Source: a virus. From it: 21,124 nucleotides of DNA. Below, piece by piece: positions 61 to 19,103 of the stretch. Made by a program: the position numbers and the translations under genes. How positions within the stretch are numbered: position 1 is the stretch's first letter; each line of letters begins with the position of its first letter. The notes beneath the pieces were generated by a model. The model searched no databases. It was given only the letters and a program-made list of their open reading frames with translations, and was not told the DNA's origin. The DNA lies in IMG/VR virus record IMGVR_UViG_3300047300_000157, positions 1 to 21,124 of that record. One strand, 5' to 3'.

Positions 61-2274
61 TCATATCTTGTTAATTCTACTGAAGGAACCAGTGTTATCG
101 TAAGTTGCAAATTTAATGCTTATTTTTGATTCTTTTTTCTCAGGCAAATATACGTGCTTTTGATTTGCCATAATAGCATATCCAGAACTAATTGACGCAT
201 CAAACTTTGTTCTGTCATTTATATCGAATCTAGCCCAGTCTTGAAGGGTTTTATTAAACGGCATATCACCCATCTCATCAGGCTGACGGTAGTTGCCCTC
301 CATGTCTAATCCAACAAAACGCTCGATGTATGTCTCTATAGCTGTGGCGTGTGCCTGCTTAATGTCTTCGCTTGATGATGGTATACCACCAATCTCTCTT
401 TCTGTGAATGACAACTTGTGTGTATGCTTATCAGGTCGGTTCATTGAGAACCCACGATAGCCTCTGTTCTTAAAATGATAGAGTAGGCGAGCTTTATTAT
501 TCTCGCAAAGAATAGGCATGCCATAGAACACGCAAGCCATCAGTACCTCTTCGAAGAATATCTCTGCCGTCTGTGGACGAGCGATGTATTCTAAAAAGAA
601 TTGGTTGGATGGTGCACCTGTCATATTAAACTTGGTTAGTCCGTGAAGCGAACCATTTGATCCACCGAACGTAGCACCTGATATATCATAAGGGTCACAT
701 CCAAATGCTCCAATATGCTCATTGCCCGGGTACCTATTACCATTCTTTGTGATATAATTATTGTTCACGCCTGGACCAGGTAGCCACGAGACAAGGAAGC
801 GACCATTCTTGTCAGGTGTCCATATGACCCTAGTATCTTTTTCTCCGTTAGCCCAGTGAAAGTAGCCACGTGTTAGAACGTGGTCCTGCACTAAACTGTC
901 ATTATAGTCTATCTGCTGATAGATTTTAGTCAAATTAAATAGAGATGACTTAGTCTCATCACGGAAAGCGTGTGACTCTGTTCTAGGGAACTGACGATAG
1001 AACTCGTTGAGTGCATCAGGGTTAGCTTTTAATGAAGCCACCTCATTGTTCCAATACTCAATAACGCCTTGTGTAATCCATGTGCCTTCTGCTGAACGTA
1101 CTGGCTTCTCAGGTGTCTCTAAGACTGCGTGACCGAACTCATCAATATATCCCTCAAAGTTATACTCCATTGGAATAAAGAGCGAATATAGACCCGAAAT
1201 AGTCTGGCCATTCTGGTTTCTTTTCTTGACGTTCGAGTCATAATAAATACGTTTATAGTTTTCACCACCTTTGTCAAGTGCATTGGATGTTGAACCCATC
1301 ATACACTTACCGATAATCCTAGCACCTAGACGAAGACAAGTTTTTCTGACACGCCAACCATTCTCAATGTTCATTGGTCGCTCTAACTTAGCAGCCTCAT
1401 CCTCAACCAAATATAGTAATTTTTCCCCATCATAACTGTTGTCTGCTGTGTTACGCCAGTCAATTGTTGTATCTAGTCCATCTATCTCCTCCTCCTCTTC
1501 TTTATCCATATTCTTGCGTGTAATCTTAGACGCAGGAACACGGAAAGCAAGCTCCGTCTTTGGAGTTGTCATACCATCACGTACAGGCTGAAAGAAGAAT
1601 GGGTAGTTGTTGGCAATAGGCACAACCTTATCAGTAAACATTTTCTTAGCATCTGGACCCGTCTTAGATGTTAAACCTATACGAGCATCCTTAGCTAAGG
1701 TTGCAATGTTTACAGCTTCTGATGAAGCCATAAAAGAGAAACCTGAACGACGGTTCTTTAGATAGCACATACCAAAGCATCTGCTATCTGCCTTGCAGGC
1801 TTCCCAGAATAAAAAGAAAACTCTGTTGGATTCACGGAAGTCAGGATGACCTACGTCAGTCTTAGACCATTGCAGGTACATATAATGTGCACCTGTGATG
1901 TATGTCTTCTCACCATTATTAATGAACCAATATCCTAGTTCACGTCTGTCAAACTCTCTCTCGATATAGTCAACCCACTGAGACTTAAAAGAGTTATCTC
2001 TTCTGTTCCAATCAAAGATTGTCTTGATTCTAGATAATTCTTTTGGTAACTCAGTTGCCTTCCATTTGTTGCCGTCATAGTCAACCTTATCAGGTGCCAA
2101 TGGCAATGCAACTCTTAGCCCGCTAATATTATACACTTCTCCAATGGTGCCATCTTTGGACACGACCACAAAGTCATATTCCGGATCCCATCCATACTCC
2201 CACTCCTTCTTTGCGTTTTTCTTTGCAAGAATTTTATCGGGAACATTAGACTCGTCAATGTAGAATAAACTCAT
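61..2274 (-). CDS. terL: Terminase large subunit (ATPase and nuclease)
   Basis: This is the DNA-packaging motor: an ATPase that drives DNA into the prohead and a nuclease that cuts the concatemer. At 737 aa it is long for the family. A Walker A-like segment KNRRSGFS lies at residues 173-180. It has the upstream arginines and the G-x-S end but no lysine in the usual GK[ST] position, as in the atypical P-loops of some terminases. Walker B is YLVEDE at about 288-293, and a GSTSN coupling-type motif follows at 327-331. The C-terminal RNase H-like nuclease has candidate metal ligands D527 (GCDPYD), E591 (CENN) and D692 (FDAS), in the expected order. The ATG overlaps the stop of the upstream gene as ATGA, so translation is probably coupled. 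The combination of both domains makes the call secure, while the exact catalytic residues are inferred. Confidence 0.93.
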   Translation of the reverse strand: MSLFYIDESNVPDKILAKKNAKKEWEYGWDPEYDFVVVSKDGTIGEVYNISGLRVALPLAPDKVDYDGNKWKATELPKELSRIKTIFDWNRRDNSFKSQWVDYIEREFDRRELGYWFINNGEKTYITGAHYMYLQWSKTDVGHPDFRESNRVFFLFWEACKADSRCFGMCYLKNRRSGFSFMASSEAVNIATLAKDARIGLTSKTGPDAKKMFTDKVVPIANNYPFFFQPVRDGMTTPKTELAFRVPASKITRKNMDKEEEEEIDGLDTTIDWRNTADNSYDGEKLLYLVEDEAAKLERPMNIENGWRVRKTCLRLGARIIGKCMMGSTSNALDKGGENYKRIYYDSNVKKRNQNGQTISGLYSLFIPMEYNFEGYIDEFGHAVLETPEKPVRSAEGTWITQGVIEYWNNEVASLKANPDALNEFYRQFPRTESHAFRDETKSSLFNLTKIYQQIDYNDSLVQDHVLTRGYFHWANGEKDTRVIWTPDKNGRFLVSWLPGPGVNNNYITKNGNRYPGNEHIGAFGCDPYDISGATFGGSNGSLHGLTKFNMTGAPSNQFFLEYIARPQTAEIFFEEVLMACVFYGMPILCENNKARLLYHFKNRGYRGFSMNRPDKHTHKLSFTEREIGGIPSSSEDIKQAHATAIETYIERFVGLDMEGNYRQPDEMGDMPFNKTLQDWARFDINDRTKFDASISSGYAIMANQKHVYLPEKKESKISIKFATYDNTGSFSRINKI

Positions 2275-2552
2275 TTACCTTTTGCTCTTTGTTCTGCAAA
2301 CCCACGGTTAGTAGGTGCAACATTATTCACAACACCCTCAATAATATTATTCTCCTCTTCGACTCTTTTAAGAATCTCAAAGGCATCCATGATAGCAAGT
2401 TTCTTTGCTGCTGCAGCGTTCTTTAATTTATCTGCACTTAAATCATCATCCATGTGGGTGACAATCTTTTCTTCAGCAACCTTAATTAACTCTTCGACAG
2501 CTTTATATCCAGAGTCAATGATGCGTTTCTTTAACTCAGTTATTTTGTTCAT
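2271..2552 (-). CDS. Small helical protein upstream of TerL, probable small terminase partner
   Basis: A 93-aa protein that looks almost wholly helical, with charged stretches (ELKKRI, ELIKVAEEKI) and an alanine/lysine core around residues 45-65 (NAAAAKKLAIMDAFEIL). The C-terminus is polar. It overlaps terL by 4 bases and the preceding gene by 17 bases, so the three are probably translated together. Its size, helical character and position directly before terL fit a small terminase subunit, which recognises the packaging site. I see no clear helix-turn-helix, so this function rests on position only. It could instead be a packaging accessory protein. Confidence 0.6.
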   Translation of the reverse strand: MNKITELKKRIIDSGYKAVEELIKVAEEKIVTHMDDDLSADKLKNAAAAKKLAIMDAFEILKRVEEENNIIEGVVNNVAPTNRGFAEQRAKGK

Positions 2553-3099
2553 TCAATTTAATTGTTAGATTCTTGGTATACATACGGTACACTTTCTCAC
2601 CGTCAATGTAGAATGGATACTCGCTCTCGGGCTCAAAGGTGACCGTGTCGCCCTCGTTTAACCCTAATTCTAATACTTCTTCATTCGCATACTTTATCGT
2701 GCCTACAAGAGGCTTCTCTGCGTCCGCAGTAAGTATTCCTGTGCCATCATTCTCGACAGGAGAGATGAACACATAACGACCTACTCCAATCCAATTACCA
2801 CCCGGTTTCTTGTAAGCATATGGGTCATCAATAAAGTACAAGTCTTCACGGAAGTAATTCCAAGCAGACTTCTCTCTACCACGCATGTCATAATATAACC
2901 TGAACGTATTGTGGTGCACAATGACTACATCACCTGGTTCGATTGGACCTTCATAGCCAATAGGCGTAGAGATAACAACAGCCTCACGCATGGTGGCAAG
3001 GTGGTCTTCTTTTGATGTAGAAATAATGAGCTCACCCCTCGTGTTGTCATATCTTTTGCCATCACGTGGTTGCACTATAAAATAAAATGGGGACTTCAT
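2536..3099 (-). CDS. GroES-like (Cpn10-fold) protein, possibly a tandem repeat
   Basis: A 187-aa protein whose C-terminal half reads like a GroES co-chaperonin subunit. It starts with a strand at about 109-114 (RYVFIS), has VGTIKYANEE at 132-141 in the place of the GroES GEVLAVG strand, and then LNEGDTVTF at 147-155. An IDGEKVYRM segment at 165-173 and a TKNLTIKL ending match the GroES pattern of GD-x-V-x-F, a short insert, IDxEEVLIM and the final strand. The N-terminal half (41-90) has a second similar unit, with PIEPGDVVIVHHN and a terminal DLYFID. It may therefore be two barrels in one chain. T4 gp31 and related proteins are precedents for phage co-chaperonins. The fold is recognised by pattern, but a chaperonin-partner role is inferred, because no clear GroEL-binding mobile loop is identified. 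The ATG follows the upstream stop as TAATATG. Confidence 0.6.
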   Translation of the reverse strand: MKSPFYFIVQPRDGKRYDNTRGELIISTSKEDHLATMREAVVISTPIGYEGPIEPGDVVIVHHNTFRLYYDMRGREKSAWNYFREDLYFIDDPYAYKKPGGNWIGVGRYVFISPVENDGTGILTADAEKPLVGTIKYANEEVLELGLNEGDTVTFEPESEYPFYIDGEKVYRMYTKNLTIKLNEQNN

Positions 3100-3584: not shown

Positions 3585-3953
3585 CTAATATTCTTGATAA
3601 GATTTCTCTTCGATGAAATCTGAGTTATACTTTATGTTTATTTTCTTTTTTACATCAGCTCTCATGTCATTGGTTTTATAAACCATTCTAGCTAACTCAA
3701 TAAACGAATCACCAAAATCTTTATTCTTTTCGCATACTCTTATTTTATCTTCTATGTCCCATAAAACCCTATTAACAGAACACAAGTCCATATAAAGGTC
3801 ATCCATAAACATATCAGACTTTACTTTAGAAGATAAATGCTGAAATTCTTTTTGGATGTTCTTTAATTTAATATCATCTTTTATTTCGTTTAGCTTAATT
3901 GCTAGAATAGATATCTTATCTAATACCTCACCAATGCTAACTTCTATTTTCAT
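3585..3953 (-). CDS. DUF6165-like protein linked to glycan genes
   Basis: A 122-aa protein matching the DUF6165 pattern as I know it: an N-terminal IEVSIGEVLDKISILAIK, a central VNRVLWDIEDKIR at about 60-73, and FIELARMVYKTNDMRADVKKKI at about 84-105 followed by an IEEKSY ending. It appears helical and cytoplasmic, with no signal peptide. Members of this family sit beside glycosyltransferases in surface-glycan clusters of bacteria and phages, but no activity is established to my knowledge. It is divergent from the multi-domain glycosyltransferase gene 52 bases away, which supports a shared role in glycosylation. It reads in the same direction as the packaging genes downstream and may be the first gene of that operon. 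Confidence 0.75.
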   Translation of the reverse strand: MKIEVSIGEVLDKISILAIKLNEIKDDIKLKNIQKEFQHLSSKVKSDMFMDDLYMDLCSVNRVLWDIEDKIRVCEKNKDFGDSFIELARMVYKTNDMRADVKKKINIKYNSDFIEEKSYQEY

Positions 3954-4005: not shown

Positions 4006-7000
4006 ATGCCAGAGAGTTATAATATATTCAAATCAGAAATAAAGGAGTACTTTAAGCATCATGTACCATCAGATACACGCATACTTGACGTAGGCCCTGG
4101 TATTGGCACATACTCCAATCTTTTGCGTGACTTAGGATATCCTATGGACTGCATAGAAATATGGGAGCCATATGTGCATGAATACAATCTGTATGATAAA
4201 TACGATAATGTACACATAGGTAATATTATTGACTTTGATATTAGCCAATATGATTATATAATACTAGGAGATGTACTTGAGCACATTGATCCAGAAGTTG
4301 CACAAAAATTAATTAACTCTATTGTTGATTCCGGCAAACAATGCTTGGTTGCAGTTCCATATGAGATGGAGCAAGGCGAATACTATGGTAATGTACATGA
4401 GACACATCTGCAAGCCGACCTTACACATGCGGTAATGAAGCAAAGATACCCTCAGTTAACTGAGTTGTATTCTAACCAATACTATGGTTACTACATAAGT
4501 AAAGATGTAAAGTATGATAGAGCTTTTGTCTTGTACGCCACTGAGTCATACTTGCCTACATTAAAAGGTGCAGTTGAGTCAATCAAAACATTTTCTAATA
4601 CACCTGTTATTGTTTATCTTTTAAACTCAGATTGTATTGTTGAGCAAGCGGACTTAACAATTAAATGGGAATGCGACATTGAGGATACGGGTCCTGCACA
4701 AAAATACATTGACAGAAGCAATAAGCATATTTATAAAATGCTAATAGAACGTCCTGCTATTGTTAAGGATGCATTACTAAAATATGCCAAGATAGTTGCA
4801 TATGTTGACAGCGATAGCGTGGCAACACAATACGTAGACAACATATTTAATATGTATGACCACAAACTTAATTTCCCTTACTTCACAGAAGGTATCTATG
4901 ACTACCTGATGATTAACGGAAGAGGTGGTGCTGAGACTAGGGACGATATGTCTACAACCTTAGAGGCTCCAGCCTGCGAATTGTTTGGTGTCAATCAATA
5001 CATTAGACAACGCTATAGACAGACTGGGTATTTTGTGGCTAGTCATTATTGTTTTGACTTTTTAAATGAGTGGTACGAAATGTGTAATCACACTCACGTG
5101 ATTAATAATCACGAGTATTATGCACCATACCACGAGGAGACAATTGCTAATGTGTTACTTTGGAAGTGGCAAGTATTAGACGGGTTGCCATTAGTCTACT
5201 CAAATGCCAAAGAAGATAGGATAGATTTTATTAACAATACTTTAAAATGGGGCAGATACATTAGCCCATGGTTTAGATTACCTAGTTGCCCTGAAGAGTT
5301 ATTATTTCTTCATGGTGAAAAGAATTATGCAAAAATGCTATTGATGCTAGGTCATCTACAAAAAAAATCTAGTGGACCTAGAATTATGTTCATAGCACCA
5401 CACCTATCAACAGGTGGCATGCCTGCATTTCTTTTAAAAAGTATTGATTGTTTAAATGCCACAATATCTGTAGTAGAGTATCAATGCCACAGTCTAGATT
5501 ATGTTGTTCAACGTAATGTTATAAAAGAAATCGTAGGGGATTCTTTTGCTACATTATTTGAGAACAAGATGGAGCTATTTAACTACATCAAAGGATGGAA
5601 ACCTGACATCATCCACATACATGAGCCATCTGAAAGATTAGATAGAGAGATGGTATCTGAATTATATAGGGAAGATAGAACATACAAGATTGTAGAGACC
5701 TGTCATGACATATCATTTAATCATGACCAAGAAAAGATATTTCACCCTGATGCGTACTACTTCTGTACGCCATATCACTTAGAGACATTCGCTTCATCAC
5801 CATCTTACAAAGAAGTAATTGAGTTCCCAATTGATGACAAGAGAAATGATAACTATCTCAATCCTTTTGATACAAGTAAAATAAATGTAGTTAATGTAGG
5901 TCTTTGGACTCCTGGTAAAAACCAAGCAGAAGGTATTGAGATAGCTAGAAAGTATCCTGACATGAACTTTCATTTTATCGGGAACCAAGCTGCAAATTTT
6001 AAAGATTACTGGGAGCCTTTAATGAAAAACTTGCCACCCAATGTAAAGGTGTGGGGAGAAAAAAGGAATCCCGAAATGTATATGAGATGGGCAGACATCT
6101 TTATGTTCAACTCTACATGGGAATGTAACCCACTAGTATTACGTGAAGCAATCTCATTTGGCAAACCAATCATTGCTCGCAATTTGCCACAATACGGATC
6201 AATGTTTGATAAGTACATTCAACCAATCGATAGCGACTTACATTCGCTACAATGTAATTACATTGTACCTACAGATAATACATCTCCAATATTTTGGGAC
6301 AAGCAAAAGGCATTCTACAACAAAGTAATGACACTAGATAAACAAGAGCAAGATGTACACATATATCAAAATTTTGTTAATGGTCCATTCTTAGAAATTA
6401 AAGCAGGGATCAAGGCTAAATTTAAAGTAGAGTTTTATGAAGAGGGTAATCTAGTATATGACAATACAATTAATTCTAATTGTTGGGTACGACTTAATAA
6501 ACAATACTACAGCAAGTGGGAAAGTAAAGTATATTTAGATGGGAAACTTGTACACCACAATATACTTAACCTAGAAGGTAAGCGTGTATATATTGCCATA
6601 GAAAGCAAGTCCTTAGGTGATACAATTGCTTGGGTACCATATGCTTTAGAGTTTCAAAAGAAACACAATTGCAAGGTGATTATGTCAAGTTTTTGGAACA
6701 AAATACTAGACATTCCTGAGATAGAATTAGTAGAGCCAGGTAGCGTTGTTCCTAATATATATGCCCAATACAATATTGGTTGGTTCTATGATGCCAACAA
6801 AGAACCGGTATTACCTAACACCATAAAGCTACAAGAGGCGGCAACTAAAATACTTGACCTTGAGTTTCAGGAGATTATGCCTAAGTTAAAGTATGATGCT
6901 AGTAATAATAAATACGGTAAATATGTTACGATAGCTACCAACTCTACAGCAGGATGTAAGTTTTGGACAAGAGAAGGATGGCAAGAACTTATCAACTACT

Positions 7001-7392
7001 TAGTTAATAAGGGATATAAGATAGTTAATGTCAGCAAGGAAAATAATCCTTTTGATAACTGCGAGAAAATTGACAACACAAGTATTGAGAATACAATGGC
7101 TGTCATTCATCATAGTGAGTTCTTTATTGGCCTTAGCTCAGGATTATCGTGGCTTGCATGGGCATTAGGCAAGCAGGTAGTGATGATTAGCAATTTCACA
7201 GAGGATGACCATGAGTTTGAGTGTATAAGAGTAACCAACAAGTCAGTATGCCACGGATGTTGGAACAATCCTAACTTTAAATTTGATCGTGGGGATTATG
7301 ACTGGTGCCCTATAAATAAAAATACTCCTAGACATTTTGAATGTCATAGGAGTATCTCTGCTGATGATGTAATTAAGAAACTACCAGTTTAG
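4006..7392 (+). CDS. Four-domain methyltransferase / glycosyltransferase fusion with a BAHT-like C-terminus
   Basis: A 1128-aa cytoplasmic enzyme. Residues 1-165 are a class I SAM methyltransferase with motif I DVGPGIGTY (28-36) and IILGDVLEHI (85-94). Residues about 170-410 look like a GT-A glycosyltransferase with D268-S-D270 as the metal/nucleotide-sugar motif. Residues about 457-750 look like a GT4-type GT-B enzyme, with GLWTPGKNQ (632-640) and an E-x7-E motif (E706, E714). Residues about 788-1128 resemble the bacterial autotransporter heptosyltransferase (BAHT) family: an N-terminal beta-rich part beginning GPFLEIK, SKSLGDTIAW (867-876), a GT9-like FIGLSSGLSWLAWALGK (1040-1056), and cysteines C1082, C1085, C1101 and C1113 in the CxxC-x15-C-x11-C pattern of the family's iron-binding finger. 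No signal peptide or TM segment is seen. It is the only plus-strand gene and is divergent from a DUF6165-like gene. The domain calls are by motif, and the sugars and acceptor are unknown. A phage tail fibre or host surface protein is a plausible acceptor. Confidence 0.85.
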   Translation: MPESYNIFKSEIKEYFKHHVPSDTRILDVGPGIGTYSNLLRDLGYPMDCIEIWEPYVHEYNLYDKYDNVHIGNIIDFDISQYDYIILGDVLEHIDPEVAQKLINSIVDSGKQCLVAVPYEMEQGEYYGNVHETHLQADLTHAVMKQRYPQLTELYSNQYYGYYISKDVKYDRAFVLYATESYLPTLKGAVESIKTFSNTPVIVYLLNSDCIVEQADLTIKWECDIEDTGPAQKYIDRSNKHIYKMLIERPAIVKDALLKYAKIVAYVDSDSVATQYVDNIFNMYDHKLNFPYFTEGIYDYLMINGRGGAETRDDMSTTLEAPACELFGVNQYIRQRYRQTGYFVASHYCFDFLNEWYEMCNHTHVINNHEYYAPYHEETIANVLLWKWQVLDGLPLVYSNAKEDRIDFINNTLKWGRYISPWFRLPSCPEELLFLHGEKNYAKMLLMLGHLQKKSSGPRIMFIAPHLSTGGMPAFLLKSIDCLNATISVVEYQCHSLDYVVQRNVIKEIVGDSFATLFENKMELFNYIKGWKPDIIHIHEPSERLDREMVSELYREDRTYKIVETCHDISFNHDQEKIFHPDAYYFCTPYHLETFASSPSYKEVIEFPIDDKRNDNYLNPFDTSKINVVNVGLWTPGKNQAEGIEIARKYPDMNFHFIGNQAANFKDYWEPLMKNLPPNVKVWGEKRNPEMYMRWADIFMFNSTWECNPLVLREAISFGKPIIARNLPQYGSMFDKYIQPIDSDLHSLQCNYIVPTDNTSPIFWDKQKAFYNKVMTLDKQEQDVHIYQNFVNGPFLEIKAGIKAKFKVEFYEEGNLVYDNTINSNCWVRLNKQYYSKWESKVYLDGKLVHHNILNLEGKRVYIAIESKSLGDTIAWVPYALEFQKKHNCKVIMSSFWNKILDIPEIELVEPGSVVPNIYAQYNIGWFYDANKEPVLPNTIKLQEAATKILDLEFQEIMPKLKYDASNNKYGKYVTIATNSTAGCKFWTREGWQELINYLVNKGYKIVNVSKENNPFDNCEKIDNTSIENTMAVIHHSEFFIGLSSGLSWLAWALGKQVVMISNFTEDDHEFECIRVTNKSVCHGCWNNPNFKFDRGDYDWCPINKNTPRHFECHRSISADDVIKKLPV
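7311..7355 (-). terminator. Probable intrinsic terminator inside the 3' end of the convergent gene
   Basis: Bases 7322-7336 pair with 7340-7355 in a 15-bp stem with one bulged base (7346) and a 3-nt loop (7337-7339). Read on the minus strand, the stem is followed by a T-rich run, TTTTATTTATA (7311-7321). On the plus strand no T-run follows. This fits termination of leftward transcription coming from the fibre genes, 40-85 bases beyond the last minus-strand stop codon. It lies wholly within codons of the plus-strand glycosyltransferase. Confidence 0.6.
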
Positions 7393-7869: not shown

Positions 7870-8211
7870 TTAAATAGTTACTTCTTCAGTTACAGGCTCA
7901 GGAGTCGGTTCCGGAGTTGGTTCAGGAGGAACCGGTGGAACATACTCACCTGTGATAGTTAAGTTTAATTGTGCTGCAATCCAATCCCAAGCAAATGAAT
8001 CTTGTGACCACTCAGCATAAGCCTCTCCCGTCATATTAAGATTGCCTTGTGCTAATTGTGCACCTACTGATGTATCTTCGTTTTCAGCAAATAATCCGTA
8101 CCAAAAAGTAGCAGATGTATTTAATGTTACATTAACTGCATAAGCATTTAATATAGTTGCACTTTGTGTTGTACCACTGTCCCAAATGGATACTGGTTCG
8201 ATTGTTTTCAT
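7870..8211 (-). CDS. Hypothetical virion-type protein with proline-rich tail
   Basis: A 113-aa protein. Residues 1-90 look like mostly beta structure (WDSGTTQSATILNAYAVNVTL, FWYGLFAENEDT) and the C-terminal 25 residues are a Pro/Glu/Thr repeat (PEPTPEPTPEP). The N-terminal half has the character of a fibre-associated or decoration protein, and the tail is probably an extended linker. There is no signal peptide. It is 33 bases after the preceding gene in the fibre operon. I do not recognise a named family. A small structural or fibre-accessory role is inferred from position. Confidence 0.7.
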   Translation of the reverse strand: MKTIEPVSIWDSGTTQSATILNAYAVNVTLNTSATFWYGLFAENEDTSVGAQLAQGNLNMTGEAYAEWSQDSFAWDWIAAQLNLTITGEYVPPVPPEPTPEPTPEPVTEEVTI

Positions 8212-8244: not shown

Positions 8245-8679
8245 TTACGGACAATACGTCTGTCCTGACACAATTTGTATTGATCCATTATAACCTGAAG
8301 GTAGTGTAGTTTGCGATATTCCATTGTAATAATAGAATACTGGGCTACCACTTGGAAGAACATAACGCTGACCTGTTCCTAGTACAGGAGTAATCTTTGT
8401 CCATGCTGCAGGTCCACCTGAGCAATGGTTAAGTTGATAGTAGGTGTAAGTAGATGCTACTAAATTGCTTTTTACTACTAACTGGTTATCAGTCTTTCCA
8501 GATAATGGTGAAGTCTGAATATCAACTGTGGTTAGAGCCCCAAGTTTAGTCACCTCTCTATTACTAGGCACTCCAGGAGGCGGTATCGTTCCAATCTGTA
8601 TAAACACATTGTTATTTACCGCATCTTGAAGATTTGCCCAACTCACACATTGATTACTTGCTATTCCTGCCCAAGACAT
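8245..8679 (-). CDS. Small fibre-associated protein of unknown function
   Basis: A 144-aa beta-rich protein beginning MSWAGIASNQCVSWANLQDAV, with a Pro/Gly hinge at about 32-38 (TIPPPGVP). A second part contains DNQLVVKSNL at about 84-93, followed by a Tyr/Gly/Ser-rich region (FYYYNGISQTTLPSGY) and a Cys-Pro end. It has three cysteines (C11, about C105 and C143), no signal peptide and no membrane segment. Its ATG follows the fibre stop codon as TAATATG, so it is probably translated with the fibre. This suggests a fibre-associated or tip protein, by context only. Confidence 0.7.
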   Translation of the reverse strand: MSWAGIASNQCVSWANLQDAVNNNVFIQIGTIPPPGVPSNREVTKLGALTTVDIQTSPLSGKTDNQLVVKSNLVASTYTYYQLNHCSGGPAAWTKITPVLGTGQRYVLPSGSPVFYYYNGISQTTLPSGYNGSIQIVSGQTYCP

Positions 8680-8680
8680 A

Positions 8681-11600
8681 TTAGTTCAAGTTTAGTTGTT
8701 GTTCTAGTTCTGATACACGTTGCTCTAATCTTGCAATCTTAGCTGTATGCACCTCACGGTAAGAAAGACTTAGTAACCCATCTGTTCCCTTGCTAACTGC
8801 ACTAGGTAGGATATCTTGTACATCTTGAGCATAGTAACCTAACTCTTCTTTACCATTCTTAACATACAACTTAGCCACTACAGATTCAATACCTTTTGCT
8901 TGGTAATTATCTGTGATTAATGTTTTAATTGTAGCATCGGAGCTTTCGTAAAAAGCAGTTGCTGTAACTTGGTTAGTGAATGTTGCAACTCCTGCTGCTG
9001 TTATTCTGAATCTCTCACTTGGTGTAAAGTTGGTATTAGCTGTCAGTCCACTATTTGTATATACTACAAAATTTCCACTTTGTAAACTAATTACAGCAGA
9101 GGTAGTATTATTGCTGTAAAAATAACCGCTATTTTGATAGTAAGAGTCTCCTGATATAAATTTATATCCACCTGCTGCAACTGAGCCAATATAAACCCCA
9201 CTGCCATCAGAATAATCCCTAAATCTAGCATTCCAAAACGGAGCAGGATTCATACCAACATCTATTGTACCACTAGTTGATAAACTTGTTGCAGCATATA
9301 TGGTGCCATTAACATTTAATTTATACCCACTATCCGTTGTTGTTCCTATCAATACGTTCCCCCCGCTAGTGATTCGCATACGTTCGGAGCCGTTAGTAGT
9401 TAAAGCTAAAGGATGATTTGAATCTGTTCCAAAAAAAGTAACTGAACCATCAGAGGAGTTCCAAGAAGAATTTACTCCTATTGAAGTTTCTCGGTTAGCA
9501 ATAACTGAAGGGCCAGAATTTGAAACTACAAGTTTGCCTTGTGTTGGTGTAGTAGTCCCTATGCCGACGTTGCCAGAGGAAGTGATTCGCATACGTTCCA
9601 AAGCCCCAGTTTTAAACATTAAAGCTCCATAACTACTACCATTTTCTTCTAATGTAATCCCAGAAGAAGAAGTATTTATCAATAAATAAGAATTAATTCC
9701 ATCTCCAGGAATACTTCGAAATGCTGCTAAATTACCATAAGAAGCAGAATATACCTCTAATTGTGAAGATAATCCTAATGTTTGTCCTACTATTATTTGT
9801 GATGCCGTAACACTACTCGAAAACGTGGCGGCTCCGCCAGTAAAACTATGCCCATTAGAGTTGCTATAATATGTTTTATTATCAGAAGCTACTCTTCCTA
9901 TATAACCAATTTGAGTACCTGCATTATTTCTAAATCTTAAAACATAATCTCCAGTATTACCTAAATCTTGTACTGTATGATATTGAGAAATAACATCAGT
10001 AATTGCCGTAACACTACTCGAAAACGTGGCGGCTCCAGTGGCAGCTAATTTTAAAGCAGTATTAGGAACACCTGATGTAAAACTTAATCCATTTGCATCA
10101 TTAGTTATATTCCAAGCATATGACACTCCAAATACACCCAAGAATGTAATAGTTGAGTTTGCAGCAGTTGCACCATTACCAACTGTTAAAGCATTTCTAC
10201 TAATTGTGGTACCATTCACATCAAGTTTGTAGCCTGAGTCTGTGGTTGTTCCGATTAGGACGTTTCCATTGGCATTCATTCTCATTATAGGTGAACCTGA
10301 AATGTAATGTATAATGTATCCGCTTGATGTATTTACTAATAATCCACCTGCTGAATCATTTCTAAAATCTGTATAAACAGTGCCTGATGCATCATAAGCA
10401 ATTCGTAATTGTTCTGCAGTATTTACTACAGATAATGTTTTAGCAGGCGAAGTTGTGCCTATTCCTACGTTACTTTGTGTAAGAGTAAGCAAGGATGTGC
10501 TAGAAGCATTGTAGAAATAAAACTTATTATCTCCTGCGGATTGAGCAATACTTGAGCCAACCACCCATTGAGCTGTTGTTGTGCTAATTTGATTACTATA
10601 AAATCTTAATGCTCCCCTTCTGTTGTATGTTGCATCTCCTGATTTAAATACAATTTCTGTAGCACCTCCTGCTGATTCTTCTAGTGTTATAGAAGTAGTA
10701 GAAGAACTACTAACATTTCCTCTAACGTGCAATAATGAAGCAGGCGAAGTCGTTCCTATTCCTACGTTGCCATCTTTTGTTACCCTCATTCGGTTAGCCC
10801 ACGAGCTACCATTATAAGTATAAAAATCTATACCTGCTCCTGCACTTGTGGCTGCCCCTGCTATAATACCTGTTTTATCAGTTGTGTCATATCCAAATTG
10901 TAACCCATTGTCACTAGAAGAAAAATCACCCAAATATGCAATTCTTCTGCCATTTGTACTACCAAATGCAAATGTTGATTGCTGATTAATTGCAAAGGCA
11001 AATTCGACTGATGTCCCTGCATTAATATTTATTCTAGGTACAGTCAATAATCCACTTGTAAGGGTAAGATTATTTGTAAACCTACCCGTACCATTTACAT
11101 CTAGTTTGTAGCCTGAGTCTGTGGTAGTTCCAATTAGAACATTGCCGCCAGTTGTAATATAAAGTCTATCTGTTCCACTTGTTGCAAAAGCTAAATCAGT
11201 ATAAGTACCTGTGCCTCCGCTACCATAAGTAGTAGCAATTCTACCCAGCGTTCCTGTGTGAGCAATAGTTACAACATCACTATTAGGTAGTGCTTGTACG
11301 GCTAAACCTTCGTAATCACTATTAGTAGATTGCTTAATTAATAATTTTACTGCTCCGAACCCTATGGTTCCTGTTGCATTTATAATAACATTGCTTCCAT
11401 TGTCATAGATTAAACTATTAGCAATAGTAGTAGCACCTGTTGCTTTAGGAATATAGTTTGTAGTAAGTGATCCTGTAATAGCATTAACAGGAGTTGTTCC
11501 TGAAGAACCAGATGTGCCACTAGTTCCTGTGGTTCCACTCGTTCCATTAGCACCTGATGTTCCGGAAGTACCGGTTGTACCAGATGTGCCGCTAGTACCG

Positions 11601-14209
11601 CTAACAGTAATACCCGATGTACCCGATGTTCCTGTCGTTCCTGACGTACCTGTCGTTCCTGAAGTTCCTGAACTACCACTTACTCCTGAAGAACCTGACG
11701 TACCTGTAGTACCAGATGTACCAGTCGTTCCTGAAGTTCCTGATGTACCATTAACACCTGATGTACCTGATGTACCTGTTGTCCCACTGCTACCACTAAC
11801 TCCTGAGCTACCTGATGTACCTGAGCTACCGCTTACGCCGCTTGAACCAGAAGTACCTGTTGTACCCGAGCTGCCACTAACTCCACTTGACCCTGATGTA
11901 CCTGTTGTACCAGATGTGCCAGAAGTTCCACTGACTCCTGAACTTCCAGAAGAGCCACTTGTACCAGTTGTGCCACTAGTACCGTTAACACCAGAAGAAC
12001 CAGACGTTCCACTTGTACCCCTTGTACCACTAGTACCACTTGTTCCAGTAGTTCCACTAGTGCCCGAAGTACCACCTGTTCCATTAGTTCCACTTGTTCC
12101 TGATGTACCTGTTGTTCCCGAAGTACCTGAGGTTCCTGTTGTTCCTGATGTACCAGAAGAACCACTTGTGCCACTCGTGCCTGTAGTACCACTTGTTCCT
12201 GATGTTGCAGATGTGCCGCTGCTTCCGCTCGTGCCTGTAGTTCCGGATGTACCCGAGGTTGTACCTACTGCAATACCAATTTGTTTGATATTGGTAATAA
12301 TAGAAGGTGCTGCAGGAACTGAGCCTGTTGCAGCAACAGCTGTTATTTGAACATGATCACTATTAGCACTAAAATAAACCTCGTAATAATCACCCGCACT
12401 TGCACTATCAATAATAGATACAAAAGGAAGTTGCTTGCTTGAGTTAGATACTAATCCTAAAATAGAATCCGTTCTAAGTATATTAGTGCCATTCTTCTTT
12501 AACCAAATATCAACGTCTGCATTTGTGCCTTGTGTTTTCTCAATTTGCAATGAGTAGGCAATCTCATAAATACCTCCATGCTGAACGGTTAGTTGAGAAC
12601 CGCTAAACACAATACCATTACTTAGCTCAACATTGCTATAAGTAATAGCTGTTGGAGTGTTTGCCGCTGTTACAGCTTGTGTAGTTGCACTAGTAAATGC
12701 ACCGTACCAGTTAGCAATACTTGCTCCTGATGATCCGTCAATACCGTTACGACCTGAGGTACCAGAAGTACCAGTTGTACCGCTCGTGCCGCTTGTTGCA
12801 CTCGTACCTGATGTACCTGAAGAACCACTTGTACCTGTTGTACCGCTTGTACCACTTGTACCTGATGTTCCGGTTGTACCAGAACTACCTGATGAACCAT
12901 CTCCACCACTAGCACCATCTAAGTTAACGGTCCAAGAAGAGTATGTTCCACTACCAACTGTTCTGTTTGGTGCAGCAAATTGCAATGAACCTGTTGCAGG
13001 ATTGTAAGATACAATCTCGCACTCTTGATAGTTAGATGTATTATATAAAACAATGATGGATTGAGCTGGCGAATAAGCAAGCCCCACTCCAACTGTTATA
13101 GTTCCAGCATTACCAAGAGTAAAGCTAGAAGTTGATGAAGTATAATATCTATCTCCTGATAATCCTGAACTACCCGATGTTCCTGTAGTTCCGGATGTAC
13201 CACTAGTACCACTGGTTGCAGAAGTACCGGATGTACCACTAGTTCCCGACGTTCCTGTTGTACCAGATGTTCCACTAGTAGCAGATGTACCGGATGTACC
13301 TGTTGTACCGGATGTACCAGTCGTGCCTGAGCTACCTGAGCTGCCACTAGTCCCACTTGTTGCACTAGTTCCGCTAGAACCCGATGTTCCTGTTGTGCCG
13401 GATGTACCCGACGTACCATCAGTTCCATCATAACCATCAATACCTGATGTTCCTGATGTACCACTAGTTCCTGCTGAACCATTAGTACCTGAGGTTCCAC
13501 TAGTACCTGAGGTACCACGTGTACCTGACGTACCGCTTGTGCCATCTGATCCTGATGTGCCTGATGTTCCACTAGTGCCTGATGTAGCTGAAGTACCACT
13601 AGAACCTGAGGTTCCTGTTGTACCAGATGTTCCTGAGCTACCAGATGTGCCTGATGTGCCTGAGCTACCCGAAGTACCTGTTGTACCAGATGTACCGCTT
13701 TCTCCTGAAAACAACCCAAATATAACTGGCTCATCCTCAGTAATTGTACCTGAATTACCTTGTAAGAATACTAAATCTAAAAAATAGTAATCGCCTGTAT
13801 GAACAACAGCTGTAACGCCATATAAGGCATATTCGCTAGGAAACCCAGGGCGAGATACAGCAATTATTCTGTTTAACCAAATCTCTTCAATGTATACACC
13901 TGGCTCTGTATTGGCAAGTGTTAAGAATGATACCTTAATCGTTCCAGCAAGACCGGTTACATCAACAGTGTCAAATGGGTGACCCACTAACTCAAATGTC
14001 TTTGCAGGCTGCTCTCCAAACTCATCATACATTTTGTATGTCCAGTTGAAACTACCTGTATCAATAATACCAACACGATTAAAATAATCGGCTACTGCAT
14101 CTGCTGTAAAGTTTTTGGTTAATTTATCAGGAGTCTGCCAATCTGAACCAATCCATCTGTCTTGACCGGTTACAAATGTATCCCTACTATAGGTTGATAT
14201 TCTTGCCAT
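8681..14209 (-). CDS. Collagen-like tail fibre with C-terminal S74 self-cleaving chaperone
   Basis: An 1842-aa fibre. Residues 1-165 are a likely baseplate anchor, with a KLTKNFTADAVADYF segment. Three Gly-X-Y blocks made almost only of Gly, Ser and Thr span about 169-349, 431-494 and 648-905. Between the first two is a beta module (about 352-425). Between the last two is a C1q/TNF-like globular domain (about 497-645, WYGAF...GIYEIAYSLQI). Residues 930-1750 are fibre modules with repeats such as GNVLIGTTTDSGYKL and GNVGIGTTSPA. The C-terminus is an intramolecular chaperone of peptidase family S74, with a Ser1757-Asp...Lys1762 dyad, YYAQDVQDILPSAV, and a closing coiled coil (REVHTAKIARLEQRVSELEQQL). 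The family trimerises the fibre and then cuts itself off just before the serine. The repeats contain essentially no proline. It is the first gene of the fibre operon, with a possible promoter just upstream. Confidence 0.9.
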   Translation of the reverse strand: MARISTYSRDTFVTGQDRWIGSDWQTPDKLTKNFTADAVADYFNRVGIIDTGSFNWTYKMYDEFGEQPAKTFELVGHPFDTVDVTGLAGTIKVSFLTLANTEPGVYIEEIWLNRIIAVSRPGFPSEYALYGVTAVVHTGDYYFLDLVFLQGNSGTITEDEPVIFGLFSGESGTSGTTGTSGSSGTSGTSGSSGTSGTTGTSGSSGTSATSGTSGTSGTSGSDGTSGTSGTRGTSGTSGTSGTNGSAGTSGTSGTSGIDGYDGTDGTSGTSGTTGTSGSSGTSATSGTSGSSGSSGTTGTSGTTGTSGTSATSGTSGTTGTSGTSGTSGTSATSGTSGTSGTTGTSGSSGLSGDRYYTSSTSSFTLGNAGTITVGVGLAYSPAQSIIVLYNTSNYQECEIVSYNPATGSLQFAAPNRTVGSGTYSSWTVNLDGASGGDGSSGSSGTTGTSGTSGTSGTTGTSGSSGTSGTSATSGTSGTTGTSGTSGRNGIDGSSGASIANWYGAFTSATTQAVTAANTPTAITYSNVELSNGIVFSGSQLTVQHGGIYEIAYSLQIEKTQGTNADVDIWLKKNGTNILRTDSILGLVSNSSKQLPFVSIIDSASAGDYYEVYFSANSDHVQITAVAATGSVPAAPSIITNIKQIGIAVGTTSGTSGTTGTSGSSGTSATSGTSGTTGTSGTSGSSGTSGTTGTSGTSGTTGTSGTSGTNGTGGTSGTSGTTGTSGTSGTRGTSGTSGSSGVNGTSGTTGTSGSSGSSGVSGTSGTSGTTGTSGSSGVSGSSGTTGTSGSSGVSGSSGTSGSSGVSGSSGTTGTSGTSGVNGTSGTSGTTGTSGTTGTSGSSGVSGSSGTSGTTGTSGTTGTSGTSGITVSGTSGTSGTTGTSGTSGANGTSGTTGTSGTSGSSGTTPVNAITGSLTTNYIPKATGATTIANSLIYDNGSNVIINATGTIGFGAVKLLIKQSTNSDYEGLAVQALPNSDVVTIAHTGTLGRIATTYGSGGTGTYTDLAFATSGTDRLYITTGGNVLIGTTTDSGYKLDVNGTGRFTNNLTLTSGLLTVPRININAGTSVEFAFAINQQSTFAFGSTNGRRIAYLGDFSSSDNGLQFGYDTTDKTGIIAGAATSAGAGIDFYTYNGSSWANRMRVTKDGNVGIGTTSPASLLHVRGNVSSSSTTSITLEESAGGATEIVFKSGDATYNRRGALRFYSNQISTTTAQWVVGSSIAQSAGDNKFYFYNASSTSLLTLTQSNVGIGTTSPAKTLSVVNTAEQLRIAYDASGTVYTDFRNDSAGGLLVNTSSGYIIHYISGSPIMRMNANGNVLIGTTTDSGYKLDVNGTTISRNALTVGNGATAANSTITFLGVFGVSYAWNITNDANGLSFTSGVPNTALKLAATGAATFSSSVTAITDVISQYHTVQDLGNTGDYVLRFRNNAGTQIGYIGRVASDNKTYYSNSNGHSFTGGAATFSSSVTASQIIVGQTLGLSSQLEVYSASYGNLAAFRSIPGDGINSYLLINTSSSGITLEENGSSYGALMFKTGALERMRITSSGNVGIGTTTPTQGKLVVSNSGPSVIANRETSIGVNSSWNSSDGSVTFFGTDSNHPLALTTNGSERMRITSGGNVLIGTTTDSGYKLNVNGTIYAATSLSTSGTIDVGMNPAPFWNARFRDYSDGSGVYIGSVAAGGYKFISGDSYYQNSGYFYSNNTTSAVISLQSGNFVVYTNSGLTANTNFTPSERFRITAAGVATFTNQVTATAFYESSDATIKTLITDNYQAKGIESVVAKLYVKNGKEELGYYAQDVQDILPSAVSKGTDGLLSLSYREVHTAKIARLEQRVSELEQQLNLN
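9803..10036 (-). repeat. In-frame 33-bp direct repeat in the fibre gene
   Basis: Bases 9803-9835 and 10004-10036 are identical (33 bp, for example cactactcgaaaacgtggcg). They are 201 bases apart, exactly 67 codons, and both encode the end of an AATFSSSVTA segment. This marks a recent module duplication or recombination within the receptor-binding part of the fibre. Confidence 0.85.
11495..12266 (-). repeat. Third collagen-like Gly-Ser-Thr block
   Basis: The longest of the three Gly-X-Y arrays, about 258 residues of the fibre. Almost every triplet is GTS, GTT, GSS or GVS, with a few GVN, GTN and GTR variants. The register is broken near its distal end by GITVSG. Codons for the same tripeptide vary strongly. 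Confidence 0.85.
12727..12916 (-). repeat. Second collagen-like Gly-Ser-Thr block
   Basis: A short Gly-X-Y array of about 63 residues, from DGASGGDG to GRNGIDGSS. It lies between a beta module and the C1q-like domain and includes one GTS-ATS-GTS interruption. Confidence 0.85.
13162..13705 (-). repeat. First collagen-like Gly-Ser-Thr block
   Basis: A Gly-X-Y array of about 180 residues following the anchor domain. It is mostly GTS/GTT/GSS triplets with a more varied GIDGYDGTDG stretch. It has four of the fibre's six Gly-to-Ala changes in the same GTS-ATS-GTS context. Confidence 0.85.
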
Positions 14210-14254: not shown

Positions 14255-15427
14255 TTATAAATTAATTTTGGTGCCTATCATGCCAAGATAGGATTGAGGA
14301 ATAGTAGGATTGGTGTTGAATCCTGTTTTTAAAGCGAAGTTAAATTTGAAGCGTTTGCTTAGTGCAATATCAAATGATGCTCCTGTCAAAAAGCCTATGT
14401 CATTACTTGTCACAAATACTTTTTGCTTTGTTAGATAACCTGTTGATGATCCTGATACGTATACATCAGGACTAATTGATACGTATCGATTTACCTTGAT
14501 TGGAACAGTGTAGAATAGCATAATATTATTAGACACGTTCATCTCTTCTCCTGCACCTGCAAGCGATAATGTATAGTTGGCTCCTGTGGTGCCATACTTG
14601 CCCATAGGGACAATGTAAGCAGCCGTTCCGAAGCCCAATACATTTCCTGATAAATAAACGCCTGTAACGCCAAAGTTTGATATAGACTCTAGCTTCCCTT
14701 CGTTGAAGTTCATCAACGTATAACGTCCACCTAATGCAAACTGGTCAAAGGTTGACCATATCATTGAGTTAATGCCCCACGATGAGTTACCCATCAAAGA
14801 GGCTTGACTCATCCCAACACTAGCAATGATAGATATTACTTCGCTAGATGGAGCGACCGTAAAATCCGAAGAATAAATAATTGGATTCGACGAAGACGAC
14901 TTGGCTTTGTTCTCGGTTTTCTTGCTTGTTTTGGATTCGGTTTTTTCTTCACTTTTAGATTCTGTTTTAGTTTCTGATTTACTCTCTGTTGTTGTTGATG
15001 CGGGTGTCTCTGTCTTTGTCTCAGCTACAGGAGCTGGGGTTGAAGCAGATGTGGCAGCTGTTGTGGCTGCACTCGTGGCTGCCGACGTAGCTGCTGCGGT
15101 TGCTGTTGCTGTTGCCGAAGTGGTTGCTGCTGCTACTGCTTGGGATACTGCGTTAGCCACTGTCTGCGTTACAGCAATGGTTGCTTGCGGGCATGGATAA
15201 TTAACCGTTAGCTCATTTATCCATGCTTGCAGTGCCCCACTTGTAATATCGTTTGCCGTCACTACCTTGTACTGTCCTCGGTAGACCACGGTAGTTTTGC
15301 CTCCCGCTAATGGTACTACTACAGTTGTCACCTTGCCACTGCACGGATCTACGAACACCTGCGTAAGTGTTTGTGCGTACGTAGTCGTGGCTAAGATAAG
15401 TATGGCTATAGTAGTTATCCATTTCAC
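14255..15427 (-). CDS. Exported protein: signal peptide, Ala/Ser/Thr linker, probable outer-membrane beta-barrel
   Basis: A 390-aa protein with a signal peptide (MKWITTIAILILATTTYAQ, probable cleavage near 18-20). A small N-terminal domain (20-90) has two cysteines, C29 and C79. A long low-complexity linker follows, first Ala/Thr/Ser-rich (about 95-132) and then Lys/Glu/Thr/Ser-rich (about 135-180). The C-terminal 185-390 consists of alternating short strands with Gly and aromatic residues (FALGGRYTLMNF, GFGTAAYIVPMGKYG, RFKFNFALKTGF) and ends GMIGTKINL, which fits an outer-membrane barrel. The start is GTG, overlapping the CsgG-like stop as GTGA. An ATG 5 bases further on is in another frame. 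Its place beside CsgG-like and lipoprotein genes suggests an envelope role in the infected cell. Surface display, receptor masking or export are all possible. Confidence 0.8.
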   Translation of the reverse strand: MKWITTIAILILATTTYAQTLTQVFVDPCSGKVTTVVVPLAGGKTTVVYRGQYKVVTANDITSGALQAWINELTVNYPCPQATIAVTQTVANAVSQAVAAATTSATATATAAATSAATSAATTAATSASTPAPVAETKTETPASTTTESKSETKTESKSEEKTESKTSKKTENKAKSSSSNPIIYSSDFTVAPSSEVISIIASVGMSQASLMGNSSWGINSMIWSTFDQFALGGRYTLMNFNEGKLESISNFGVTGVYLSGNVLGFGTAAYIVPMGKYGTTGANYTLSLAGAGEEMNVSNNIMLFYTVPIKVNRYVSISPDVYVSGSSTGYLTKQKVFVTSNDIGFLTGASFDIALSKRFKFNFALKTGFNTNPTIPQSYLGMIGTKINL

Positions 15428-16131
15428 TTGAATATTTTCTTCTTAATCATTCTGACAATAATTTTACTTGTAGCATTCTCCAACGCTTTCTTAGTTGTTG
15501 TACCTATTGTAGATTGATTAAATTTAATTTCTGCGAAGTTGCCATCGTTCATCAATGTCGCTTCACGTGTAGTCTTTGCTTCTCCTAAGCCTGAACCTGT
15601 AAAGTATTCTCCTGTCTCTGCGTTAACAAACTTAACTTGCAATCCCATTCTTGTCACCACTGTTTGCTTTGAGCCATCCTTTAATGAGATAGACTCGTCT
15701 TCACTAACTGAGAAGTCGTAGCACTCGATGTACACAAAGTACTGAGCTAACTTAATCTTGCCTCTTCCATCTAACTTGTTCTCAGATATGCCTGCCTGTG
15801 ATGCTTGAAACTGCTTGACCATGCGGTTCTTAATCTCAGCCTTGTCTTCTGTGAATGTAAAGCGGTTAGTCTCTTCCAAGAACTCAACCACAATATTAGT
15901 CACACCTAGACCCACACGCTTATCTTTTAGCTCAGGATACGCAGCATACACATCCTCATTAATGCCAAGTGACAATAATTGGATGAGCACCTTTGGTCCA
16001 TCATAGTCCATCAAAGAATCTATATTAATCTTCTTCTCAAAACTAGCTTGATACGCCTCCGTTTTGGTCGTGGCAATCTGCCCAAAGGATGCAAACGACA
16101 AGAGCAATAAGCAAATACTCCATCTTACCAT
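15424..16131 (-). CDS. CsgG-like exported protein
   Basis: A 235-aa protein with a signal peptide (MVRWSICLLLLSFASFGQ). The mature part has a pattern I associate with the CsgG family: VGLGVTNIVVEFLEETNRFTFTED at about 72-95, then a KNRMVKQFQASQAGIS helix and loop. An AQYFVYIECYDFSVSED strand at about 129-145 corresponds to the family's G-x-V-x-x-F/Y part. CsgG forms an outer-membrane secretion pore for curli subunits in Enterobacteria, and relatives occur in marine phages and Bacteroidota. There is no lipobox cysteine at the cleavage site, unlike E. coli CsgG, so it may be periplasmic or differently anchored. It overlaps the upstream TM-protein gene by 7 bases and the downstream barrel gene by 4. 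The family call is by pattern and moderately sure; pore function is inferred. Confidence 0.65.
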   Translation of the reverse strand: MVRWSICLLLLSFASFGQIATTKTEAYQASFEKKINIDSLMDYDGPKVLIQLLSLGINEDVYAAYPELKDKRVGLGVTNIVVEFLEETNRFTFTEDKAEIKNRMVKQFQASQAGISENKLDGRGKIKLAQYFVYIECYDFSVSEDESISLKDGSKQTVVTRMGLQVKFVNAETGEYFTGSGLGEAKTTREATLMNDGNFAEIKFNQSTIGTTTKKALENATSKIIVRMIKKKIFK

Positions 16132-16430
16132 TGTGGTGCTTCTTGTAGTTCTTCTTTCTCTGTCTTCTTCTTAGGCTTAGGCTCTGCAGCCTTCTCCTTA
16201 ACAATGACAGTCTTAGTGCCTCCGCTAGAAGCCTGTTGAGTCTGTGCATTGTTGATGACAATCTGTGGTTGCTGTGCAGCTGGTTGCACCACCTCAGTCT
16301 TTGGTTCTTCTTTGTCTCCAAATAAAGACTCAAACTTAGTAGCCACCACACCTGTGATAGTTGTGATAAGTAATGTTACTCCTCCGATTACAGCTCCTTT
16401 AATTGAGCCTCCTTCTTTTTCTTCTGACAT
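16125..16430 (-). CDS. One-TM protein with a charged, proline-containing tail
   Basis: A 101-aa protein with an acidic N-terminus (MSEEKEGG), a single transmembrane segment at about 11-30 (IKGAVIGGVTLLITTITGVV), and a long hydrophilic tail. The tail has a Gln/Ala/Pro part (VVQPAAQQPQIVINNAQTQQ) and a Lys/Glu/Pro part (KEKAAEPKPKKKTEKEELQ). This gives a membrane-anchored extended protein whose tail could span the periplasm, somewhat like TonB in outline, but with no TonB domain. It starts one base after the lipoprotein stop and its end overlaps the CsgG-like gene. I do not recognise a family. A coupling role for the CsgG-like partner is speculation. Confidence 0.7.
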   Translation of the reverse strand: MSEEKEGGSIKGAVIGGVTLLITTITGVVATKFESLFGDKEEPKTEVVQPAAQQPQIVINNAQTQQASSGGTKTVIVKEKAAEPKPKKKTEKEELQEAPQW

Positions 16431-16431
16431 T

Positions 16432-16794
16432 TTATAAATAATTATTGTGGTTAATTGGTCTTTTAATTTGTTCTCCTGAGATGTTAATCACTTCTATGTC
16501 ATACATCCCATGTTTTAATGTATCTAAACTAATCGTCTTAAAGCTAATAGGACTATCTGCCGTGAACCCTAATTTCTTAACAGGTTCTTTGCCACCAAAA
16601 GTATATATTGCTAATGCATACTTTGCTCCTGGGGTTGTAGCTAGTGTAACCTCAAGCGTATTATTCTTAACAACAGCTGAGTTTATAGCCATTACTTTAG
16701 ACTCAGCACCTAAATTAATAGGCTGCTCAATCACGCTAATTTCTTCACACGAAATTACAAATAACAAAAATAAGAATACTAAAAGTCTATTCAT
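16432..16794 (-). CDS. Small lipoprotein
   Basis: A 120-aa protein with a lipoprotein signal: a short basic start, a hydrophobic run (LLVFLFLLFVISC) and a lipobox V-I-S-C16, followed by acidic residues E-E. The mature part is a small beta-rich domain (NNTLEVTLATTPGAKYALAIYTFGG ... YDIEVINISGEQIK), suggesting an immunoglobulin-like sandwich. It is probably lipidated and held in the outer membrane facing the periplasm or the surface. It starts one base after the stop of the cohesin-like gene. The sandwich fold beside cohesin and dockerin-like modules hints at an adhesion or assembly role, which is inference. Confidence 0.75.
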   Translation of the reverse strand: MNRLLVFLFLLFVISCEEISVIEQPINLGAESKVMAINSAVVKNNTLEVTLATTPGAKYALAIYTFGGKEPVKKLGFTADSPISFKTISLDTLKHGMYDIEVINISGEQIKRPINHNNYL

Positions 16795-16795
16795 C

Positions 16796-19074: not shown

Positions 19075-19103
19075 AATATAAAAGGACAAGTTTAGCCTTG
19101 TCC
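19075..19103 (-). terminator. Probable intrinsic terminator after the lysis module
   Basis: On the minus strand GGACAAG pairs perfectly with CTTGTCC (7 bp) over a 6-nt loop and is followed by TTTTATATT. The hairpin overlaps the end of the 41-aa gene, and its T-run abuts the ATG of the next gene. It may limit read-through from the lysis genes or act as attenuation. The stem is short, so confidence is moderate. Confidence 0.45.

Follow-up and report, generated by a model that had tools for sequence, protein, structure and literature searches.

A four-domain phage enzyme with a thumbless TibC/AAH-type end is associated with (Gly-Thr-Ser)n collagen-like proteins

Results

The four-domain gene and its product

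The window analyzed here is the whole of a 21,124-base IMG/VR virus record (IMGVR_UViG_3300047300_000157), in which a first-pass annotation had described the gene at 4006-7392 as a fusion of methyltransferase, GT-A, GT4 and BAHT-like domains. That reading is upheld by profile matches for the methyltransferase (MT), GT4 and BAHT domains, and by invariant motifs and a structural model for the GT-A-like (GTA) domain, whose family is unassigned. The thumbless branch of BAHT enzymes to which the C-terminal domain belongs is associated with proteins built of (Gly-Thr-Ser)n, or (GTS)n, collagen-like repeats, and the window encodes one of these as a fibre 1.3 kb from the four-domain gene. The features of the enzyme and the fibre are as follows.

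4006-7392, plus strand: MT-GTA-GT4-BAHT enzyme, 1,128 amino acids (aa), open frame with an ATG start
4006-4500, plus strand: class I S-adenosylmethionine (SAM) methyltransferase domain, residues 1-165 (PF13489, 2.7e-7)
4501-5370, plus strand: GT-A-like domain, residues 166-455 (D268-x-D270, H436-G-E438-K)
5371-6330, plus strand: GT4-type GT-B glycosyltransferase domain, residues 456-775 (PF00534, 1.9e-10)
6331-7389, plus strand: thumbless BAHT (TibC/AAH-type) domain, residues 776-1128 (TIGR04414)
6619-6621, plus strand: Asp872, equivalent to the catalytic base Asp110 of TibC, invariant in 166 BAHT domains
7045-7050, plus strand: place of the missing thumb, residues 1014/1015, a 10-residue gap relative to TibC
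7249-7344, plus strand: iron-finger Cys1082, 1085, 1101 and 1113, equivalent to TibC Cys339, 342, 358 and 370
8681-14209, minus strand: collagen-like fibre, 1,842 aa (PF01391, 1.2e-57, 192 bits, above the Pfam cut-off)
11492-13705, minus strand: interrupted collagen-like region of the fibre, 159 G-x-y triplets

When searched in isolation (residues 1-170), the methyltransferase domain scores 30.9 bits against PF13489, for a cut-off of 27, and its SAM motif, D28-x-G-x-G-x-G34, is invariant across an alignment of 26 relatives. The GT4 domain carries an E706-x7-E714 motif. Residues 166-455 matched no Pfam, PHROG or PDB profile, and a profile-sequence comparison with GT8 members aligned the DxD stretch alone, with no significance. 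The same residues take up a confident alpha/beta fold in the AlphaFold model, and both the D268-x-D270 that follows a beta strand and the C-terminal HGEK are invariant in 38 relatives; these features fit a GT-A fold and support a GT-A-like domain at this place. The model of the whole chain, built from an alignment of 55 relatives, has a mean predicted local distance difference test score (pLDDT) of 88.5, and with it Foldseek ranks TibC first, followed by GT4 enzymes. Because its predicted template-modelling score is low (0.51), the model does not tell how the domains are placed relative to one another.

A BAHT domain without the TibC thumb

Residues 781-1125 score 256.9 bits against TIGR04414 (hepto_Aah_TibC), whose curated NCBIfam cut-off is 200, and phmmer aligns them with TibC (4rap) at 1.6e-45. 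In the model this part (pLDDT about 90) consists of an N-terminal beta-barrel and a GT9-like catalytic domain, and the comparison with the TibC structure that the first-pass annotation had proposed yields a clear match in Foldseek (E 1.9e-29, template-modelling score on the target 0.81-0.83, root-mean-square deviation 2.2-3.2). The activity of TibC needs Asp110, Lys230, Trp305, Arg286 and the four iron-finger cysteines, and the thumb tip, Phe265/Val266, is required for both the dodecamer and activity (PMC4358343). The catalytic motifs are intact in the window protein, which has in common with TibC/AAH (TIGR04414; PDB 4RAP/4RB4) the overall fold including the N-terminal barrel, the catalytic Asp, the donor-site residues T981, K985 and W1049 (TibC Thr226, Lys230 and Trp305) and the four iron-finger cysteines, which are invariant in all 166 domains, viral and prokaryotic. 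The position of TibC Pro300 is occupied by Ser, as in AAH. On the other hand, the adenine-contacting Arg286 is replaced by T1030, and the thumb region is reduced to 12 residues, as compared with 22 in TibC-type enzymes. With no beta-hairpin thumb, formation of a dodecamer by the window protein is improbable. The assignment of the C-terminal domain to the BAHT family, made from profile and model, holds, and the absence of the thumb places it in a divergent sister group instead of among TibC-like autotransporter enzymes.

This divergence extends well beyond the window. Of the 166 domains compared, 58 prokaryotic BAHTs have a thumb region of 22 residues, whereas the other 108, including every viral one, have 11-18 residues, apart from two with a 24-residue region of unlike sequence. 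In a quick-method tree built with the thumb columns removed, thumbed and thumbless domains are split by a single branch with an SH-aLRT (approximate likelihood ratio test) support of 100. The position of Arg286 is T in 90 of the 108 thumbless domains and R in 8. The thumbless branch comprises phages and scattered prokaryotes and appears to be a large and so far unnamed branch of the TibC/AAH family. Two of its fusions, encoded together with (GTS)n proteins, lie in contigs binned as archaea (L175 and L185, Thermoplasmatales and Nitrosotalea; L-numbers denote loci). Both may be misbinned viral contigs, the neighbouring protein in L175 being phage-like, and some other genome-record loci may likewise be proviruses or misbinned phage contigs.

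Integrity of the frame and nested architectures

The first-pass annotation had contemplated that the frame might be an assembly join of two genes and had suggested searching phages for the same domain order. A single frame with these four domains was found in 28 IMG/VR contigs, which fall into 17 clusters at 80% identity; the 4006-7392 frame is hence real. In relatives the gene likewise lies between TerL and the fibre, and there it takes nested forms: GT4-BAHT (675 aa, e.g. L001-L003), GTA-GT4-BAHT (about 955 aa, L101 and L103) and MT-GTA-GT4-BAHT (L017/L106). Versions split across adjacent genes also occur (MT-GTA with GT4-BAHT, MT with GTA-GT4-BAHT), and wider relatives swap their N-terminal modules for FkbM, Gly_transf_sug, GT25 or GT9 with Methyltransf_24. 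Such module exchange between phage fusions is seen in L121, L125, L129, L140 and L156. The part that remains constant across fusions is the BAHT end, and the nested forms agree with a chain that grows outward from it, in an order that we infer.

Two loci illustrate the plasticity of this site. L006 (8660-14404) encodes a 1,914-aa phage chain with seven recognizable enzyme domains (FkbM methyltransferase, Gly_transf_sug, SAM methyltransferase, GT-A, a pyruvyl transferase of the polysaccharide type, GT4 and BAHT), with a GT9 gene directly upstream. In L007 (2863-3372) there is only a 169-aa methyltransferase, whereas in L004 (2863-4592), with near-alike flanks, the frame continues into GTA and GT4, a difference that suggests a recent loss or gain of the remaining domains. 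A DUF6165 gene often accompanies the MT/GTA forms and is mostly absent when only GT4-BAHT is present. A strict coupling of DUF6165 to the GT-A module was rejected: L100 and L102 combine DUF6165 with GT4-BAHT only, and in the co-occurrence table many GT-A loci lack DUF6165. In L064, DUF6165 adjoins a 292-aa gene that is glycosyltransferase-like by eye.

Association with (GTS)n collagen-like proteins

Collagen-like regions were defined as runs of at least eight G-x-y triplets with Ser or Thr in at least half of the x and y positions, a criterion set after the pattern had been seen; the GPT-type (Gly-Pro-Thr) and TerL controls, which came later, used either this criterion or the Pfam cut-off. The viral contigs are fragmentary, with some redundancy among them that clustering at 80% identity lowers but does not fully remove. 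We detected (GTS)n runs in 52 of 91 viral BAHT loci and in 31 of the 34 that span at least 18 kb (22 of 24 clusters at 80% identity). A further check of 14 BAHT records with no (GTS)n run in the fetched stretch revealed one elsewhere in the record for 12 of them. Such runs were found in 0 of 74 TerL-related control loci that lack a BAHT, many of which are short (0 of 14 at 18 kb or more), and none of 16 TerL-related control records exceeded the collagen cut-off or contained a BAHT. In the reverse direction, with Ser scanned as TCN codons only, 16 of 37 GTSGTSG contigs among the matches listed encode a BAHT, as opposed to 0 of 28 GPTGPTG contigs (p 2e-5). Two other accounts of the association were rejected on these grounds. 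GTS fibres might be common in viral contigs at large, but GPT-type collagen contigs have no BAHT; and the link might stem merely from the podoviruses of this TerL group, but their BAHT-less relatives lack (GTS)n and prokaryotic thumbless loci have a (GTS)n partner.

In genome records, a (GTS)n protein is encoded in 14 of 17 thumbless loci versus 0 of 58 thumbed ones (p 1e-12), or 14 of 17 versus 0 of 36 by cluster (p 3e-10). For two of the three exceptions, exact GTS-repeat hits lie elsewhere in the genome (several for L179, one for L172). In L174, L176, L178, L180, L181, L183 and L188 the (GTS)n gene directly adjoins the BAHT gene, at a distance of 7-759 bp, and in L173 one open reading frame lies between them; overall, BAHT and (GTS)n genes are separated by 7-961 bp, with an intervening frame of at least 80 aa in one case only. 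These neighbours occur in Methylococcaceae, Acidiferrobacterales, Arenicellales and others, and the prokaryotic (GTS)n partners are small, several or most of them starting by eye with a signal or lipoprotein-like leader. The most compact arrangements are two-gene pairs of a thumbless BAHT and a short exported (GTS)n protein in Methylococcaceae and a Polaromonas bin (L178:8935-11155, L181:9995-11438, L183:9830-11900, L188:8853-11092). In the Methylobacter and Methylomicrobium loci, 40-110 bp separate the two genes.

The repeats themselves are distinctive in composition. The 159 triplets of the window fibre include 84 GTS, 26 GTT and 25 GSS, and no Pro. Over 47 viral loci, the X position is Thr in 63% and Ser in 25% of triplets and the Y position is Ser in 76%, with less than 1% Pro at either, whereas GPT-type contigs have Pro at 35% of X. 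Glycosylation of Thr is able to stabilize collagen helices poor in hydroxyproline.

Genomic context

The remaining features of the window are these.

61-2274, minus strand: TerL (phrog_6681, 9e-170)
2536-3099, minus strand: GroES-like protein
3585-3953, minus strand: DUF6165 protein, divergent neighbour of the four-domain gene (PF19662, 1.4e-12)
7870-8211 and 8245-8679, minus strand: small proteins between the four-domain gene and the fibre
19217-20056, minus strand: peptidoglycan-binding/GH19-type lysin

The four-domain gene is the only long convincing plus-strand gene within a minus-strand structural module, and a promoter and terminator scan around it gave results at chance level. The C-terminus of the fibre weakly matches the S74 chaperone (PF13884, 0.0039). 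The region 14255-19089 holds a run of genes whose products start with signal or lipoprotein-like leaders; one of these products is 580 aa long and has cohesin-like domains (PF00963, 6.8e-10). By eye the product of 15424-16131 resembled CsgG, but profile searches gave no support for this. The closest annotated TerL proteins belong to an uncultured podovirus (67%) and to Flavobacterium and Cellulophaga phages, and a Bacteroidota host is therefore likely.

Discussion

Taken as a whole, the evidence leads us to regard the four-domain enzyme, with reasonable though not strong confidence, as a protein-glycosylation assembly line whose target would be the collagen-like fibre of the phage itself. This fibre is probably the acceptor, a role to which the gene association points. 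The thumbless BAHT would place a first sugar on Ser, likeliest the Y-position Ser of Gly-Thr-Ser triplets. TibC glycosylates Ser and not Thr, at sites in TibA that, as read from a printed peptide, have N-Ser-G and T-Ser-A contexts (PMC4358343), and the T-Ser-G of GTS repeats appears close to these. ADP-heptose is a possible donor, although the residue that contacts adenine in TibC, Arg286, is not conserved. Further sugars would then be joined by GT4 and GT-A to the one set by the BAHT, and the N-terminal methyltransferase would cap the chain by methylation; we give this order of steps about an even chance. Dense glycosylation of this kind might stabilize or coat the fibre. The idea put forward in the first-pass annotation, that a single protein builds a glycan step by step and caps it, is plausible and gains support from the nested architectures. 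A bolder extension, which we advance tentatively as somewhat short of an even bet, is that thumbless BAHTs form a Ser glycosyltransferase family dedicated to Pro-free (GTS)n proteins, in which domain order mirrors sugar order (a fixed BAHT end, then GT4, GT-A and cap, with FkbM, GT25, pyruvyl transferase and extra glycosyltransferases as exchangeable parts) and glycans would take the place of hydroxyproline as stabilizer of the viral collagen helix.

Several observations weigh against this interpretation. The GT-A-like domain has no family match in profile or fold searches, and activity and substrate are inferred from sequence, model and gene association, the last of which is no proof that the (GTS)n protein is what the enzyme modifies. 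Characterized BAHTs work as a ring on folded beta-helix passengers, and the window protein probably cannot form such a ring. Among the matches listed, 21 of 37 GTSGTSG contigs, many of them fragments, have no detected BAHT. By exact pattern, the genome of L170 has no (GTS)n protein. At least two further records lack one: the 54-kb fragment of L140, and LR756504.1, a 636-kb phage (L010) that has no collagen match at all; its standalone thumbless BAHT of 389 aa departs most clearly from the partner rule. Moreover, the link between BAHT and collagen is a single clade-level switch and the loci are not fully independent, so that the counts reflect a link maintained through deep divergence and not many independent origins.

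Many phage glycosyltransferases modify host surface glycans, and a moron-type role, in which the enzyme alters host lipopolysaccharide, capsule or another surface glycan for superinfection exclusion or serotype change, would agree with the PHROG matches of the GT4 and BAHT parts, which fall in the 'moron' category, and with a gene lying on the strand opposite to the structural genes. We nonetheless consider it unlikely, in view of a C-terminal domain from a family that glycosylates protein Ser, of the lack of any visible membrane anchor or acyltransferase partner, of the permanence of the gene beside fibre genes in relatives, and of the standalone prokaryotic thumbless BAHTs that adjoin exported (GTS)n proteins. 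It is similarly doubtful that the acceptor is a different virion protein (other parts of the fibre, or the products of 8245-8679 or 7870-8211) and the (GTS)n link indirect. Fibres at the site do vary, and L003 and L005 keep GT4-BAHT beside a site fibre without a GTS run, but in both records a (GTS)n protein is encoded at another place, and in prokaryotic pairs it is the (GTS)n protein that recurs as partner.

The name of TIGR04414 refers to autotransporter modification, and the first-pass annotation had implied an adhesin of this class as substrate. That the enzyme is a heptosyltransferase of the TibC kind serving a host autotransporter is, however, very improbable: the thumb that TibC needs is missing, Arg286 is replaced, thumbed BAHTs fall on the opposite side of the tree, and relatives suggest Bacteroidota hosts. 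No autotransporter gene was recognized in the window, where the neighbours are phage structural genes and the (GTS)n fibre. Since the thumb of the TibC ring is lacking and the partner is repeatedly a (GTS)n protein, the implied substrate is probably wrong. Finally, the reading of the frame as an assembly chimera or as a decayed, functionless gene, for which one could adduce the lone methyltransferase of L007, can be set aside given 28 contigs with the same frame and invariant active-site residues.

Unlike TibC, the window domain is fused to GT4, GT-A and methyltransferase domains and lies near a (GTS)n fibre and not an autotransporter. The design is not unique among phages: our viral scan gave at least 589 confirmed BAHT hits, and UniProt and BFVD hold predicted relatives in virus NIOZ-UU157 (A0A7S9XE01, 985 aa, 54% identity) and in a phage ('Glycosyltransferase Aah/TibC', A0A6J5SVC1, 924 aa, 17% identity), for which the literature searched offered no study of function or partner. 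That literature, which mostly excluded subscription papers, likewise contained nothing that connects BAHT enzymes with phages or with GTS collagens. BclA-type repeats contain Pro and are of the GPT type, as opposed to the Pro-free window fibre; viral contigs with GPT-type repeats, rich in Pro at X, were those devoid of BAHT. A precedent for enzymatic glycosylation of a bacterial collagen-like repeat protein is provided by SgtA, which acts on BclA3 of C. difficile (PMC7157674), and collagen-like G-x-y repeats occur in phage and prophage fibre proteins (PMC3368898). SgtA is not known to be fused to a BAHT domain, and its likeness to the window enzyme is drawn by analogy and not by sequence comparison.

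The BAHT family and its viral deposits were already known; what our analysis suggests as new is the tie between one branch of the family and Pro-free (GTS)n proteins. If this tie reflects function, a large unnamed enzyme family would gain a testable substrate, and Pro-free GTS collagen-like fibres a route for their modification and, perhaps, stabilization. Phages would then carry their own multi-step protein-glycosylation machinery, in the form of compact one-chain glycan-building enzymes for a simple and easily assayed repeat sequence.

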